Positions 9,605-39,741 of a DNA stretch of 40,552 nt are shown here, piece by piece. Position 1 is the stretch's first letter; each line of letters opens with the position of its first letter. The DNA is taken from positions 1 to 40,552 of IMG/VR virus record IMGVR_UViG_3300030104_004692; one strand, 5' to 3'. Both the position numbers and the translations under genes were made by a program. A model generated the notes under the pieces. That model did no database searches. It was not told the DNA's origin and saw nothing but the letters and a program-made list of their open reading frames with translations. Source of the stretch: a virus.

Positions 9605-10170
9605 TATATTTTTTCCTTCGTTTTTATTTTCGTTCTATTAGCTACGTAGACGTTAAACAATTCAGAAGGTATTGTTTTACCTTCTTCTATTTGTTCCCTT
9701 ACAAACTGCTTAAGTTGCATGGCGTTCACCTCTTGTTTTTGAACGGGTCTATAGTTTGCCTTACTCAAAAGCTCCAGAACGTGTTGAGCTTTATCATCGT
9801 CACCAGCAGTAAACGATACTCCAACATTGTTACGAATAAGATCAGCATGACCTTCAGTTCGAAGCCATTGAAAAGCTTCTTCCTGACGATCTTTGGATAT
9901 TCTCGCACCATAATAAGGAGTTATTTTTACTGATGAGCCATCGGCCAAGTCTAAAGATTTGATTCCAGCTTCAGTAAGTAGATTAGGAATAGTTTCTTCT
10001 GAGAGAAACAACGCATCTTTTTTAGCTTTCTTTAGTTGCTCTTCGATAATCGTTATCTCTTTTTCTTTTTCCTGAAGTTCTACACACTTCGCTGAGATCT
10101 TATTGACTTGTTCGTCGGATGCTTTAAGAAAAGCACCAGACACTTTTTGTATGTCTATTGTATTGTTCAT
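9604..10170 (-). CDS. Coiled-coil protein, first gene of replication operon
   Basis: 188 residues from the ATG at 10170, chosen because GGAGG sits five bases upstream. Two earlier in-frame ATGs lack such a site, and 10245 would overlap the SNF2 gene. The N-terminal half is a long charged helix (about 20-65, rich in K/E/L), then a small beta section (SSVKITPYYGARISK) and a basic C-terminus. The coiled coil next to a putative ssDNA-binding protein recalls host-nuclease inhibitors of the Gam type, but no signature confirms this. The first residues overlap no other gene. Confidence 0.62.
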   Translation of the reverse strand: MNNTIDIQKVSGAFLKASDEQVNKISAKCVELQEKEKEITIIEEQLKKAKKDALFLSEETIPNLLTEAGIKSLDLADGSSVKITPYYGARISKDRQEEAFQWLRTEGHADLIRNNVGVSFTAGDDDKAQHVLELLSKANYRPVQKQEVNAMQLKQFVREQIEEGKTIPSELFNVYVANRTKIKTKEKI

Positions 10171-10187
10171 ATCGACCTCCACAGACA

Positions 10188-10215
10188 TAAATAAACTATT
10201 GATTTTTAATGTCAA
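10188..10215 (-). promoter_or_regulatory. Promoter of the replication operon
   Basis: A perfect TTGACA -35 box on the minus strand (10210-10215) and a weaker TATTTA -10 (10188-10193) lie 16 bases apart. The predicted start is near 10181, only about ten bases before the ATG at 10170, so GGAGG would lie at the very 5' end of the mRNA. The -35 box sits inside the spacer of the rightward promoter, so the two cannot easily be occupied together. Confidence 0.5.
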
Positions 10216-10227
10216 GTATTTTATTAT
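10199..10227 (+). promoter_or_regulatory. Promoter of SNF2 helicase, near-leaderless
   Basis: TTGATT (10199-10204), a 17-base spacer and TATTAT (10222-10227). The predicted +1 is about 10234, two bases before the ATG at 10236. GGGAG directly abuts that ATG with no spacing, so it cannot act as a normal ribosome site. The promoter overlaps the leftward promoter at 10188-10215. Confidence 0.5.
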
Positions 10228-10235
10228 CATGGGAG

Positions 10236-11660
10236 ATGGTAACAAAATATAATTTTAAAACAGAGCCTTTTGCTCATCAAAAAGAAGCATTAGATAATAG
10301 TTGGGATAAAAAAACCTACGCTTTATTTATGGAAATGGGTACCGGTAAAACAAAAGTTTTACTTGATAATATAGGTATGTTGAGATCAGAAAACCTTATA
10401 AATGGTGCATTAATTATTGCCCCTAAATCAGTTTATACCGTTTGGTACAACACAGAAATACCAAAACATTTAAATATAGAATATGAAATTATGTTGTGGA
10501 AAAGCACAACTGCACGTCAAAAACTGTTGAATTTTATGGAAAAACCATCAGATAAATTAAAAATATTTGTAATAAATATTGAAGCATTTTCTAGTGACAA
10601 GGGATTTATGTGGGCTCATGAGTTTTGTAGAAGACATAATAATTTAATTGCAGTAGACGAATCAACTTGCGTAAAAAATTATCAAGCAAAGAGAACTCGT
10701 AACATAATAAAGTTAAGAAAGTTTTCTAATTACAGAAGAATTTTATCTGGATTTCCTACACCAAAAAATCCATTAGATTTATATACTCAATGTAATTTTT
10801 TAGATCCAAAACATTTAGGATTTAATTCCATTGTTGCATTTAGAAATAGATATTGTCATTTTGAAACATTATATCTTAGTGGTAGACAAATCCAAGTACC
10901 AGTAGGTTTTACAAATCTTGTAGAAATAGAAGCAAAGTTAAAAGAGTTTGCGTATAGAAAAACAAAAAAAGAATGTTTAGATTTACCTGACAAAGTTTAC
11001 ACAAAAAGAATTATACCTTTGAGCGATGAACAAAAATTAATTTATGAAGATATTAGAGTAAGAGCTAGAGCACTTCTGCATGGCCAGGAGCTAACTGTAA
11101 CAAATGTTGTATCAGAAATTTTAAGATTACATCAAGTAACCTGTGGTTATTTTAAAAGCAGAGAGGGTGACATACAAACAGTAAAAAACAAAAGATTAGA
11201 TGCATTAGTTGAGATATGTGAAGACACAGATCAAAAAATAATAATTTGGGCAACCTATGTTCATAACATCGAACAAATAAATAAAGAGCTTATTAAAAAG
11301 TTTGGAGCAGATTCTGTAGTTACATTTTATGGATCTACAAGTTCTGAAAAAAGAACTGAGGCAATAGAAAGATTTCAAAACGATCCTAAGTGCAGATTTT
11401 TTATTGGTAATCCATCAACTGGTGGTATGGGTATTACACTCACTAAAGCTGGTATAGTTGTTTATTATTCTAATAGTTATAATGCAGAACACAGAGTTCA
11501 ATCAGAAGATAGAGCGCATAGGATAGGTCAAGATCAAAAAGTAACATATATAGATTTTGTTGCTGAAAAAACTATTGATGAAAAAATTTTAAATGCTTTA
11601 GACAAAAAATTTAAACTTTCGGCAGCGACTCTTGGCGAGGTTGTGCGTGATTGGTTTTAA
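10236..11660 (+). CDS. SNF2-type superfamily 2 helicase
   Basis: 474 residues from the ATG at 10236. An in-frame ATG at 10209 would add nine residues but lies upstream of the predicted +1 and inside the -35 box of the opposite promoter. Motifs: FAHQKEAL (Q-motif region), Walker A MGTGKTK (about 34-40), DESTCVKN (DEAH-box equivalent, 141-148), LSGFPTPKNPLDLY (motif III), GNPSTGGMGITLT (motif V) and QSEDRAHRIGQ (motif VI). It is a compact SNF2/RapA-like DNA translocase, common in phage replication regions, perhaps remodelling protein-DNA complexes or origins. It is the only long rightward gene, and its last 50 bases overlap the opposing nuclease gene. Confidence 0.95.
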   Translation: MVTKYNFKTEPFAHQKEALDNSWDKKTYALFMEMGTGKTKVLLDNIGMLRSENLINGALIIAPKSVYTVWYNTEIPKHLNIEYEIMLWKSTTARQKLLNFMEKPSDKLKIFVINIEAFSSDKGFMWAHEFCRRHNNLIAVDESTCVKNYQAKRTRNIIKLRKFSNYRRILSGFPTPKNPLDLYTQCNFLDPKHLGFNSIVAFRNRYCHFETLYLSGRQIQVPVGFTNLVEIEAKLKEFAYRKTKKECLDLPDKVYTKRIIPLSDEQKLIYEDIRVRARALLHGQELTVTNVVSEILRLHQVTCGYFKSREGDIQTVKNKRLDALVEICEDTDQKIIIWATYVHNIEQINKELIKKFGADSVVTFYGSTSSEKRTEAIERFQNDPKCRFFIGNPSTGGMGITLTKAGIVVYYSNSYNAEHRVQSEDRAHRIGQDQKVTYIDFVAEKTIDEKILNALDKKFKLSAATLGEVVRDWF

Positions 11661-37189: not shown

Positions 37190-37318
37190 TTATCTCGTCT
37201 TTACTTTATACCTTTTCTTTGGCTTTCTGTCTACTCTCTTACGCATAGCTCTGGATGGTCTACCACCTCTTAATTGTCCGCTTATTTGTTTTGATATTTG
37301 TGCTCTTGAAATTGGCAT
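37190..37318 (-). CDS. 42-residue basic protein
   Basis: The ATG at 37318 overlaps the stop of the endolysin gene (TAATG). The product begins MPISRAQISKQISGQLRGGR and ends KPKKRYKVKTR, with about 17 Lys/Arg in 42 residues. The gene precedes the two MKKGG-repeat genes and is separated from them by a 44-base gap holding a palindrome. It probably belongs to the same basic virion-protein set. Confidence 0.68.
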   Translation of the reverse strand: MPISRAQISKQISGQLRGGRPSRAMRKRVDRKPKKRYKVKTR

Positions 37319-37794
37319 TATACTAAGTTTCTAGCTGAACCTATAACAGGTTTATATTTTGTTTTACCCTCTGATTTGAAAGCATGTAAAAATTGTTTTC
37401 TAGGTTGATTTGGCGTATAGCTGCAGTGTATCCACCCAGAATTGGGCTCTCCAGGTGTGTAAAATTCTAATATTAATTGGTCAAAGTCTAAGTTCTTATA
37501 AATCCAGTCAGCTAATTCAGCATTATCTGTACCCATAACTTCGAAGTCTGCTGCCTCAGCTTTTGCGTGCTGGCTCTTTGCTGAACTTTTTATGGCAAGG
37601 CACAAATCTACACTACGAAAGCAGCTAGTGACCTTTACTCTGCCAAAGTGATCTCGCACCGGCTGTAAAATATTTTCACACAATGCTTTTAATTTTTCTA
37701 CTTGTTCTGCACTAGGATTATTATTTATACCCATCCTAATAGCTGTATCTGATTTAATAAGCTCTTGAAGGCTAAAATTACGACTAATCTGCAT
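37318..37794 (-). CDS. M15A peptidase endolysin
   Basis: 158 residues. FSLQELIKSDTAIRMGI and ILQPVRDHFGRVKVTSCFRS are the standard start of peptidase M15A (D-Ala-D-Ala carboxypeptidase-like) endolysins. Zinc ligands are H76 and D83 in SQHAKAEAADF and H123 in GWIHCSY. The usual Gly between the first two ligands is Ala79. It should cleave peptidoglycan peptide stems at lysis. It overlaps the upstream gene by 11 bases. No signal peptide is visible, so it needs a holin or other pore. Confidence 0.88.
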   Translation of the reverse strand: MQISRNFSLQELIKSDTAIRMGINNNPSAEQVEKLKALCENILQPVRDHFGRVKVTSCFRSVDLCLAIKSSAKSQHAKAEAADFEVMGTDNAELADWIYKNLDFDQLILEFYTPGEPNSGWIHCSYTPNQPRKQFLHAFKSEGKTKYKPVIGSARNLV

Positions 37795-38437
37795 CTTTTT
37801 TCTCCTCTATTTGGTAAAACATTTTATCTGTATCCTCTGTAGTCCATCCTTTATCTTCGACAGACCAGTAAGTAGTTTGGACTTTATAGTCAGGCCAATC
37901 GTTGCTAACAGTGTAATTAGCAATATGCCACAAAATACGATTATTAGGCTGAGCTGCATAATTGCCGTTATCAAGCTCCAATATATGATGACACTTATGT
38001 TCATCAGGTATTTCGGAATGTTCACAATCAATTTCATTAACTTCTGGTGTAGCCCAATCAATCGTAAATAAATATTGTCCATGATAAAATTTTTTATTTT
38101 TTCCTAAATATTTTCCTTTTGCACCACCTAAAAAATCAAACTCAGTGCAACTAGGATAATAACTAAAGCAATTCCACAATTCCAACTCGTCGACTGACAT
38201 ATCTGGCACTTTGGATCTGTCAAAGTTTTTTTGAAAAAACGCTGATATAGGCAAACGCCAGTAGCACGCACCATTTGGTAACATGCAGTGAAATAAGAGG
38301 GAACGTCCTGTAACCGCTGCCATCCCAAAGATAACACACTCCATACTTTGTCCTTTATATTTGTCATCCATGTCATATAAGTACTCCTTTCTGACATTAG
38401 CGTAAATCGTCGGTATGTTTATATTTAAGTAAGCCAT
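37784..38437 (-). CDS. Conserved marine phage protein (217 aa)
   Basis: 217 residues. The sequence INIPTIYANVRKEYLYDMDD, then IFGMAAVTGRSLLFH, then WRLPISAF, then ELWNCFSYYPS, then DEHKCHHILELDNGNYAAQP is a long distinctive pattern that I associate with a strongly conserved family of pelagic phages, with no assigned function. It is rich in Trp, Tyr, Cys and His. It lies between the lysis gene and the small membrane-protein cluster. Soluble, with no signal peptide or membrane span. Confidence 0.72.
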   Translation of the reverse strand: MAYLNINIPTIYANVRKEYLYDMDDKYKGQSMECVIFGMAAVTGRSLLFHCMLPNGACYWRLPISAFFQKNFDRSKVPDMSVDELELWNCFSYYPSCTEFDFLGGAKGKYLGKNKKFYHGQYLFTIDWATPEVNEIDCEHSEIPDEHKCHHILELDNGNYAAQPNNRILWHIANYTVSNDWPDYKVQTTYWSVEDKGWTTEDTDKMFYQIEEKKDAD

Positions 38438-38549
38438 TTTTTCTACTATATAACTTTTTACTATTTATTCTACGTTGACGAAACCGCGCATCTCTTAACT
38501 TTTTTGCAAACTTATTCAAATAAGTTAAATTTGTAAAGACCTGATTCAT
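38397..38549 (-). CDS. 50-residue basic protein
   Basis: The ATG at 38549 overlaps the upstream TGA (ATGA), and the last 41 bases overlap the start of the next gene. The product begins MNQVFTNLTYLNKFAKKLRD and has an Arg/Lys-rich middle (RFRQRRINSKKLYSRK). No Shine-Dalgarno sequence is clear, so translation would rely on coupling. The long overlap lowers confidence. Confidence 0.5.
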   Translation of the reverse strand: MNQVFTNLTYLNKFAKKLRDARFRQRRINSKKLYSRKNGLLKYKHTDDLR

Positions 38550-38755
38550 TCTATTATTTTAATTATTCTTTTTCTCTCTTGGTAAACCTCTGTTTCTGCC
38601 TTTACCTTTTTACATTTAAAGACTACTCGCTCTGGATTTACTTCTTGTTTAGCTACGCGCTTTGAATAAAGGCACGCTTGTAAAGAATCTTTGTAAACGT
38701 GTTCTATCATTTTTCCGTTTAGTTCTAATATCAATGCAAATACAATCTCTATCAT
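38546..38755 (-). CDS. Small hypothetical protein (69 aa)
   Basis: 69 residues: MIEIVFALILELNGKMIEHV, then SLQACLYSKRVA, then VVFKCKKVKAETEV. Two Cys lie in the same relative places as in the product of 1922-2146. ATGA overlaps link it to both neighbours. A short hydrophobic start might be a strand rather than a signal. Function unknown; the family is common beside lysis genes of marine phages. Confidence 0.62.
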   Translation of the reverse strand: MIEIVFALILELNGKMIEHVYKDSLQACLYSKRVAKQEVNPERVVFKCKKVKAETEVYQERKRIIKIIE

Positions 38756-39153
38756 TGATGACCGTTTCCATTTCTAATTAATGCTTCTACATCTTCTGTA
38801 AGTTTCTCTGTTCTAGATTTTAAAAACTCTATGTTTACCGCATTGTTTCTCATACCCTTAATTTCATCTTCAACATCAGATACCACACCCGCTAAATGCT
38901 CTACTAACATGAAAAGTTCCGCCTCCCCACTTGACTGACCAAGTTCTCCACGGGGATATTTGATTCTAAATTCTGAATTAGCTTCTAAATCTTTTTGCAT
39001 TAACTCTATCTTTGTCGAGTGTGCATTGAGCGTCTCATGCAATCCGAAATAAGCCCAAGTGCCAATTGCGACGAGCATAATTAAACTGGCAACCGTTTTC
39101 ATCGGCATCTGCACGGCAGCTTGTTCAGAAATTTTTAAGGGTTTATTGGACAT
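38752..39153 (-). CDS. Membrane-anchored coiled-coil protein, lysis-cassette candidate
   Basis: 133 residues from the ATG at 39153, chosen because GGAGG sits five bases upstream; an ATG at 39183 has none. KISEQAAVQMPMKT precedes one membrane span (VASLIMLVAIGTWAYFGL), then a long helical outer part (SRTEKLTEDVEALI). RIKYPRGELG in the middle is a conserved-looking loop. One N-terminal span plus coiled coil suits an i-spanin, pinholin partner or other envelope protein. Position two genes upstream of the conserved 217-residue gene and the endolysin supports a lysis link. Confidence 0.65.
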   Translation of the reverse strand: MSNKPLKISEQAAVQMPMKTVASLIMLVAIGTWAYFGLHETLNAHSTKIELMQKDLEANSEFRIKYPRGELGQSSGEAELFMLVEHLAGVVSDVEDEIKGMRNNAVNIEFLKSRTEKLTEDVEALIRNGNGHQ

Positions 39154-39235
39154 GTGGTCCTCCGCAGAAAGCCAAAACAACAAACATTATAATTAATAAA
39201 CCTGTAAAATAATAATTCATCTTGGCAGTCTCCAT
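39143..39235 (-). CDS. 30-residue membrane peptide
   Basis: The frame begins METAKMNYYFTGLLIIMFVV and ends LAFCGGPHVQ, overlapping the start of the next gene. It has one membrane span and a Cys after LAF; this is not a proper lipobox because the residue before Cys is Phe. An ATG at 39220 (MNYY) with GGAG eight bases upstream is an alternative start. Small size is typical of o-spanin or holin accessory peptides; no family can be named. Confidence 0.55.
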   Translation of the reverse strand: METAKMNYYFTGLLIIMFVVLAFCGGPHVQ

Positions 39236-39241
39236 GGTTAA

Positions 39242-39319
39242 TTATCCTTTAAGCCAATTATGAATTTTTCTAAATGGCCATTTGATCCAATGCCAAATAT
39301 CTTTAAGTAATTTTTTCAT
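39242..39319 (-). CDS. 25-residue Trp-rich cationic peptide
   Basis: A GAGGTG ribosome site lies five bases before the ATG at 39319. The product begins MKKLLKDIWHWIKWPFRKIH and ends NWLKG, with four Trp and eight Lys/Arg in 25 residues, placed as in an amphipathic helix with a Pro kink. The start lies inside the preceding metal-binding gene (17-base overlap). Such a composition suits membrane-surface binding. No homologue is known to me. Confidence 0.6.
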   Translation of the reverse strand: MKKLLKDIWHWIKWPFRKIHNWLKG

Positions 39320-39434
39320 TTTTCACCTCTTTACATGAACATTTTGAACAAGTGCATAAATCACCATCATAATGATGTGGATGAAGTTCTTCATCACAAT
39401 GACAATTACAGTGGCAATCTTTGCACTTAGACAT
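39303..39434 (-). CDS. 43-residue Cys/His-rich metal-binding peptide
   Basis: Nine Cys and five His in 43 residues. The N-terminal half reads MSKCKDCHCNCHCD, the centre LHPHHYDGD, and the C-terminal half CTCSKCSCK. CxC and CxxC spacings are those of metallothionein-like metal-thiolate clusters. The ATG begins two bases after the stop of the upstream virion gene, with no clear ribosome site, so translation is probably coupled. Likely binds zinc or copper. It could be structural or buffer metal in the infected cell; the role is inferred. Confidence 0.68.
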   Translation of the reverse strand: MSKCKDCHCNCHCDEELHPHHYDGDLCTCSKCSCKEVKNEKIT

Positions 39435-39435
39435 T

Positions 39436-39741
39436 TTATTTACTATGAAATACTGTAGCTTCTATTACGTGTTCAGTAGTAAAATTACAGTAAACATCAT
39501 TCTCAAATAGAATAGGTCCTGGAAAGTTTATAGTTATTCCACCGACAGCTGCAGGTGTTTTAACCTTAAATTTTAAAGCTCCACCAGATCCTCCGTCTCT
39601 TAAATGAAAATCACCAGATGCAGTACCACTATCTAGATAAACTCCAAAAACTCTTGTTCTTCCAGATCTAATCGTACCAGTTTCAGTTGTTTGCGCTGTT
39701 GCTGATATATCTTCTGCAGATCCAAATATATTTGCTGACAT
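39436..39741 (-). CDS. Small beta-rich virion protein (101 aa)
   Basis: 101 residues. SGRTRVFGVYLDSG, then DFHLRDGGSGGALKFKV, then INFPGPILFENDVYCNF form a small beta-barrel-like pattern found in virion proteins of marine phages (grtRv.gvy...G.f.lrDGgsGG). It follows the predicted lectin-like virion protein, so it may be a head decoration or head-fibre protein. AAGGAG lies before the ATG. Confidence 0.65.
   Translation of the reverse strand: MSANIFGSAEDISATAQTTETGTIRSGRTRVFGVYLDSGTASGDFHLRDGGSGGALKFKVKTPAAVGGITINFPGPILFENDVYCNFTTEHVIEATVFHSK

Follow-up and report, generated by a model that had tools for sequence, protein, structure and literature searches.

The 40,552-base IMG/VR virus record analysed here (the window), which at the DNA level is closest, among cultured phages, to the Pelagibacter phages HTVC033P and HTVC023P, carries on its minus strand a real ORF for a 43-aa Cys/His-rich peptide, part of an uncatalogued virus family with more than 100 members that is carried by many marine phages, including several infecting SAR11. 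The peptide very probably binds several metal ions, as judged from the conservation of its Cys and His residues, and a new feature of the family is that in much of it the putative metal domain is tied to a predicted amphipathic helix, which is fused at the N-terminus, fused at the C-terminus, or encoded in an overlapping ORF. We favor, at a probability of about 0.5, the reading that the peptide is a metal-binding, helix-coupled, membrane-proximal accessory of the late/lysis programme, in which the metal would be structural and zinc buffering a by-product or a second role.

Translation of the ORF gave nine Cys and five His in 43 residues, in exact agreement with the preliminary description of this DNA. 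Sixty second-order Markov simulations of the window produced 10,404 ATG-initiated ORFs of 30–80 aa, none of which combined ≥9 Cys with ≥14 Cys+His within at most 50 aa; the real window contained exactly one such ORF, that of the 43-aa peptide. All near relatives (L048, L087, L123–L126, L200, L202, and L205) kept the reading frame and all nine Cys residues, the ORF was intact in 4/4 neighbour-selected loci holding both window flanks, and no broken copies of the family gene were seen. The refuting conditions named in the preliminary description, a disrupted frame in relatives or unconserved Cys/His positions, were therefore not borne out. The median dN/dS was 0.19 with all 690 pairs below 1, indicating purifying selection, and all nine Cys codons alternated between TGT and TGC with the residue unchanged.

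Table 1. The Cys/His-rich peptide and neighbouring genes in the window.
Feature	Position	Strand	Remarks
101-aa upstream gene	39436..39741	-	TAA one base before the start codon of the Cys/His ORF; neighbour cluster 15
43-aa Cys/His-rich peptide, MSKCKDCHCNCHCDEELHPHHYDGDLCTCSKCSCKEVKNEKIT	39303..39434	-	Family conservation, purifying selection
Predicted ligands of the 43-aa peptide			C4 C7 C9 C11 H12 C13 H18 C27 C29 C32 C34 (9 Cys + 2 His)
25-aa Trp/Lys-rich amphipathic peptide, MKKLLKDIWHWIKWPFRKIHNWLKG	39242..39319	-	ORF and Shine-Dalgarno conserved; amphipathicity
30-aa hydrophobic (membrane-type) peptide, METAKMNYYFTGLLIIMFVVLAFCGGPHVQ	39143..39235	-	Conserved next gene
Membrane/coiled-coil protein, phrog_20984	38752..39153	-	Weak Rz-like spanin similarity
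69-aa conserved small protein, phrog_24646 type	38546..38755	-	
phrog_3704 protein, PurM-like	37784..38437	-	
Peptidase M15 endolysin	37318..37794	-	PF08291, E=1.7e-13; phrog_894 endolysin, 5.7e-40

Alignment of 73 relatives showed that C4, C7, C11, H12, C13, H18, C27, C29, and C32 were invariant. Because the search pattern had itself fixed some of the alignment columns, the column counts were redone with a looser expression in which columns 8, 9, 10, 12, and 34 could vary, and which yielded 102 distinct cores. Among these cores, column 12 was His in 102/102, column 9 was Cys in 82 and His in 20, column 34 was Cys or His in 101, and the unconstrained column 10 varied widely. Column 8 held His chiefly in one subfamily; in subfamily 1 the substitutes for H8 are K, N, or Q, and in subfamily 2 they include E, G, and N. 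Column 18 was His in subfamily 1, where the first expression had partly required it, and in much of subfamily 2 a linker Cys took its place. Across the family, eleven positions are nearly always occupied by Cys or His; in the window peptide they comprise nine Cys and two His. Of the His-rich centre noted previously, only H18 is conserved: core types of 29 and 34 residues have lost H20/H21. H8, too, is dispensable.

The exchange of Cys for His at three positions (9, 34, and linker 18) pointed to metal coordination rather than disulfide bonding, and since eleven ligands cannot be divided into four-ligand sites, bridging thiolates are likely. The ligand count together with the Cys/His swaps suggests d10 metal ions in thiolate clusters; we infer zinc as the metal, and the cluster stoichiometry likewise. 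AlphaFold modelled the metal core with low confidence (pLDDT 60, pTM 0.29).

With nine Cys in 43 aa, the peptide fits the broad chemical definition of a metallothionein as a small protein with a high content of conserved Cys. The core of the bacterial metallothionein SmtA is Zn4Cys9His2 (PMC10119931), with eleven ligands, nine Cys and two His, the same count as predicted for the phage peptide; bacterial metallothioneins bind 3–4 Zn (PMC10612145). SmtA and BmtA (PF02069, Metallothio_Pro) are likewise small and Cys-rich and share with the phage peptide a CxCxxCxC knuckle, which is N-terminal in the SmtA-type proteins and C-terminal in the phage peptide. However, ligand order and spacing differ, the YCxEAC finger segment of SmtA/BmtA is absent, and the PF02069 order of an N-terminal CxCxxCxC followed by YCxxxC...H was not found in the phage peptide, which contains no CxxxC...H segment. 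Unlike SmtA/BmtA, the phage family is also often helix-linked and was not found in cells by the searches made. PF02069 matched none of 73 family members at E up to 10, and hhalign of the family against seven PF02069 proteins returned a Prob of 1.8% over 12 columns, covering the CxCxxCxC knuckle only. By these tests the peptide is not a PF02069 member, although it may function as a metallothionein does: the metal binding by the ligand set that the preliminary description implied is strongly supported by the conservation pattern, but nothing was found to place the peptide in the bacterial metallothionein family. Small phage zinc-finger proteins share with the peptide CxxC pairs, short length, and a presumably cytoplasmic location, and differ from it in that the phage peptide packs eleven ligands into ~31 residues. 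The hallmark of c-type cytochromes is an invariant CxxCH with an export signal; this identity was rejected because H8 is not conserved and the highly charged window peptide lacks an N-terminal hydrophobic segment. No export signal was apparent on the window peptide.

The distribution of the family was examined by running a degenerate DNA pattern that covered just the N-terminal half (C..CHC.CHC) against IMG/VR and GTDB genomes, the two samples being comparable because ~120 matches were listed for each. Among the matches listed, the C-terminal half H...C.C..C.[CH], which had not been asked for, was present in 105 of 120 IMG/VR contigs, with 2 more contigs incomplete, and none of the 120 GTDB matches was a genuine member, although two low-complexity frames fitted the C-terminal half. 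For 24 further GTDB pattern candidates, tblastn confirmed no relatives, and a profile search gave no match in 385 Alphaproteobacteria genomes. We use “virus-specific” in the sense of not found in cells here, because the pattern counts cover the ~120 matches listed per database and one host class was sampled. The window peptide itself gave no meaningful tblastn match to phages and plasmids (a short query under a low-complexity filter), and the family had no significant match in Pfam, PHROG, NCBIfam, or PDB. No phage metallothionein-like family was found in the literature searches; in the one phage paper naming a metallothionein, the gene sits in the section on bacterial genome analysis (PMC3974807). 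A profile search detected a family member in 4 of 20 phage records, all four of which had been picked for a weak match, and in 0/16 of the others. Members of either subfamily occurred in 7/80 neighbour-selected and 24/80 phrog_3704-selected loci; the family gene is an accessory with a patchy distribution.

Several architectures were distinguished. Type A, that of the window clade, consists of the core with a short tail. Type B carries an N-terminal MIDKIIYKLFGYLD-type helix and a Lys/Arg-rich linker ahead of the core, as in HTVC106P gp36 (QGZ18079.1); AlphaFold placed its helix 2–24 in a block of pLDDT 77–82 and left the core uncertain. Types C and D extend the core at its C-terminus with a tail (RTYKYQKDHATDMSFENEVKYD or VIDDTNECESCQ, for example), and many of their members lack a fused helix. 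The divergent subfamily 2, defined by CxxCxHxCHC...CxCxxCx[CH] with a Trp/Lys-rich helix behind it (for example, KKWWQFWK), directly follows the phrog_3704 gene and looks homologous by profile comparison (hhalign Prob 89%, E 2e-6). Tandem genes of both metal-domain subfamilies were observed in a single contig (L018, plus strand, ~9,960–10,374). At the same genomic position, the N-terminal helix was also found with a minimal metal domain or none at all, for example in Skadi4_24, HTVC022P gp48, and HTVC121P gp52, the C-terminus of the last being a minimal CKCKGKCKCK tail. MIDK-type helices without a full metal domain occur in cultured pelagiphages (L410 2494–2628, L414 2527–2667, and L406 2502–2621), where their slot lies ahead of a phrog_20984-type gene. 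The amphipathicity of some family helices was not above that of composition-matched shuffles.

The window clade seems to encode the helix in a gene of its own. The 25-aa ORF overlaps the final 17 nt of the Cys/His ORF, within which lies its Shine-Dalgarno sequence AAAGAGGT, ending five bases 5′ of the ATG. Both the ORF and the Shine-Dalgarno sequence were present in every near relative compared (10 rows, of which some share a contig, representing 6 distinct sequences), and the L123 copy of the ORF had synonymous changes only. The 25-aa peptide has a net charge of +6 and a hydrophobic moment of 0.713, which was reached by 12 of 5000 shuffles. In character it is similar to cationic lysis or antimicrobial peptides. 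The disruptins, of phage PhiKT type, are amphipathic cationic lysis peptides (PMC12819732), and the predicted 25-aa peptide is likewise short, cationic, amphipathic, and located beside lysis-type genes; with regard to spanin/disruptin lysis proteins, the observations comprise its position and its amphipathicity. Disruptins have no counterpart of the phage metal domain.

Gene context was assessed across 114 family loci. A phrog_20984 protein was the commonest neighbour, lying within four genes in 83/114, a phrog_24646 protein neighboured 65/114, and at least one of the four membrane or small lysis-type neighbours was present in 90/114. The nearby endolysin was a Phage_lysozyme in 39 loci and an M15 peptidase in 22, with both in none and neither in the available sequence of the remaining 53. 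Some members lie away from recognised endolysins, which runs counter to a lysis reading; in Autographiviridae pelagiphages, for example, the family gene is immediately upstream of the major capsid gene. The earlier placing of the gene in a virion region was only partly apt, the locus being a junction of capsid-type and lysis-type genes. The phrog_3704 protein of this neighbourhood (in the window and in L202–L281) is labelled “ferredoxin” in PHROGs, and many phage records call it “PurM” or “phosphoribosylaminoimidazole synthetase”; neither label looks reliable.

In the reading that we favor, the 43-aa ORF would encode a small stand-alone metal-binding domain, most likely holding three or four Zn(II) ions in a thiolate/imidazole cluster on nine Cys and two His. 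Expression from this capsid/lysis region would presumably be late, and the amphipathic helix, whether N-fused, C-fused, or encoded by the overlapping ORF as in the window, would place the domain at the cytoplasmic membrane. Its most likely role would be that of a compact metal-folded accessory near the membrane in the late or lysis phase, with structural use of the metal, any zinc buffering being incidental or secondary. Whereas the family, its conservation, the selection on it, the Cys/His swaps, the helix coupling, and the gene context are shown here, we infer the late expression, the membrane placement, and the lysis-phase role of the Cys/His peptide. A more elaborate version, which we regard as a long shot, is that marine phages possess a metallothionein-class cluster of their own, unrelated to the cellular ones, which is tethered to the host membrane by the amphipathic peptide and acts as a metal-responsive lysis timer, metal loading, for example, setting the moment at which the amphipathic peptide acts.

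As the main rival, the peptide could function as a true metallothionein, acting as a soluble Zn (or Cd/Cu) buffer capturing host metal during infection, by which late assembly would be shielded from metal freed by host metalloprotein breakdown, or the host starved. In SAR11 hosts, whose metal uptake is reduced, we consider this plausible, if on the whole rather unlikely. The nine Cys and two His of the peptide equal the Zn4Cys9His2 ligand set of SmtA (PMC10119931), bacterial metallothioneins hold 3–4 Zn (PMC10612145), and SAR11 metal uptake is minimised except for high-affinity zinc (PMC4771312); however, a free buffer would not be expected to be fused or coupled time and again to amphipathic helices and polybasic linkers, the fixed spacing in both halves fits a structural fold, and no Metallothio_Pro homology was detected by the tests made. 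A nucleic-acid- or protein-binding zinc domain with a part in capsid assembly or in the control of late genes, rather than in lysis, would suit the location in the Autographiviridae relatives, where the major capsid gene follows directly, and the polylysine linker of type B, but the peptide has no similarity to known zinc-finger families and most loci adjoin lysis-type genes, which makes this explanation improbable.

A metal chaperone passing zinc to the M15 endolysin or iron to 2OG-Fe(II) oxygenases, as previously proposed, would draw on the M15 gene ~1.5 kb downstream in the window and on oxygenase-type genes elsewhere in it. As a family role this delivery was rejected, since the distribution of the family speaks against it: the endolysins recognised nearby are mostly lysozymes, with a Phage_lysozyme in 39 loci, an M15 enzyme in 22, and both in none; an Fe oxygenase was present in the available sequence of just 3/114 loci; and several M15-bearing pelagiphage records lacked the peptide in an HMM search. 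We regard it as very unlikely. Still less probable is the thiol redox sink also raised in the preliminary description, or a disulfide-linked peptide; the high thiol content would suit either, but the Cys/His exchange at columns 9, 34, and linker 18, the conserved His, and the apparent lack of an export signal on the window peptide all disfavor them.

SAR11 bacteria are among the most abundant in the ocean, and the family adds an uncatalogued, strongly conserved, putative metal-binding group to marine phages, including those infecting SAR11. Should each copy of the peptide really bind several metal ions, zinc partitioning at lysis could shift with infection, in hosts with stripped-down metal uptake to which high-affinity zinc uptake is the exception (PMC4771312). 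The idea is directly testable because cultured carriers exist, namely, HTVC106P (gp36), Gjalp EXVC020P, and HTVC041P. Members also lie unannotated in public phage records (L283 4887–5096 and L286 3944–4114; KT997847.1, OR420753.1), and HTVC023P (L417 3353–3748) contains a divergent CFECHHDCHCDKICPKCSCYTC core, likewise unannotated, after its PurM-like gene.
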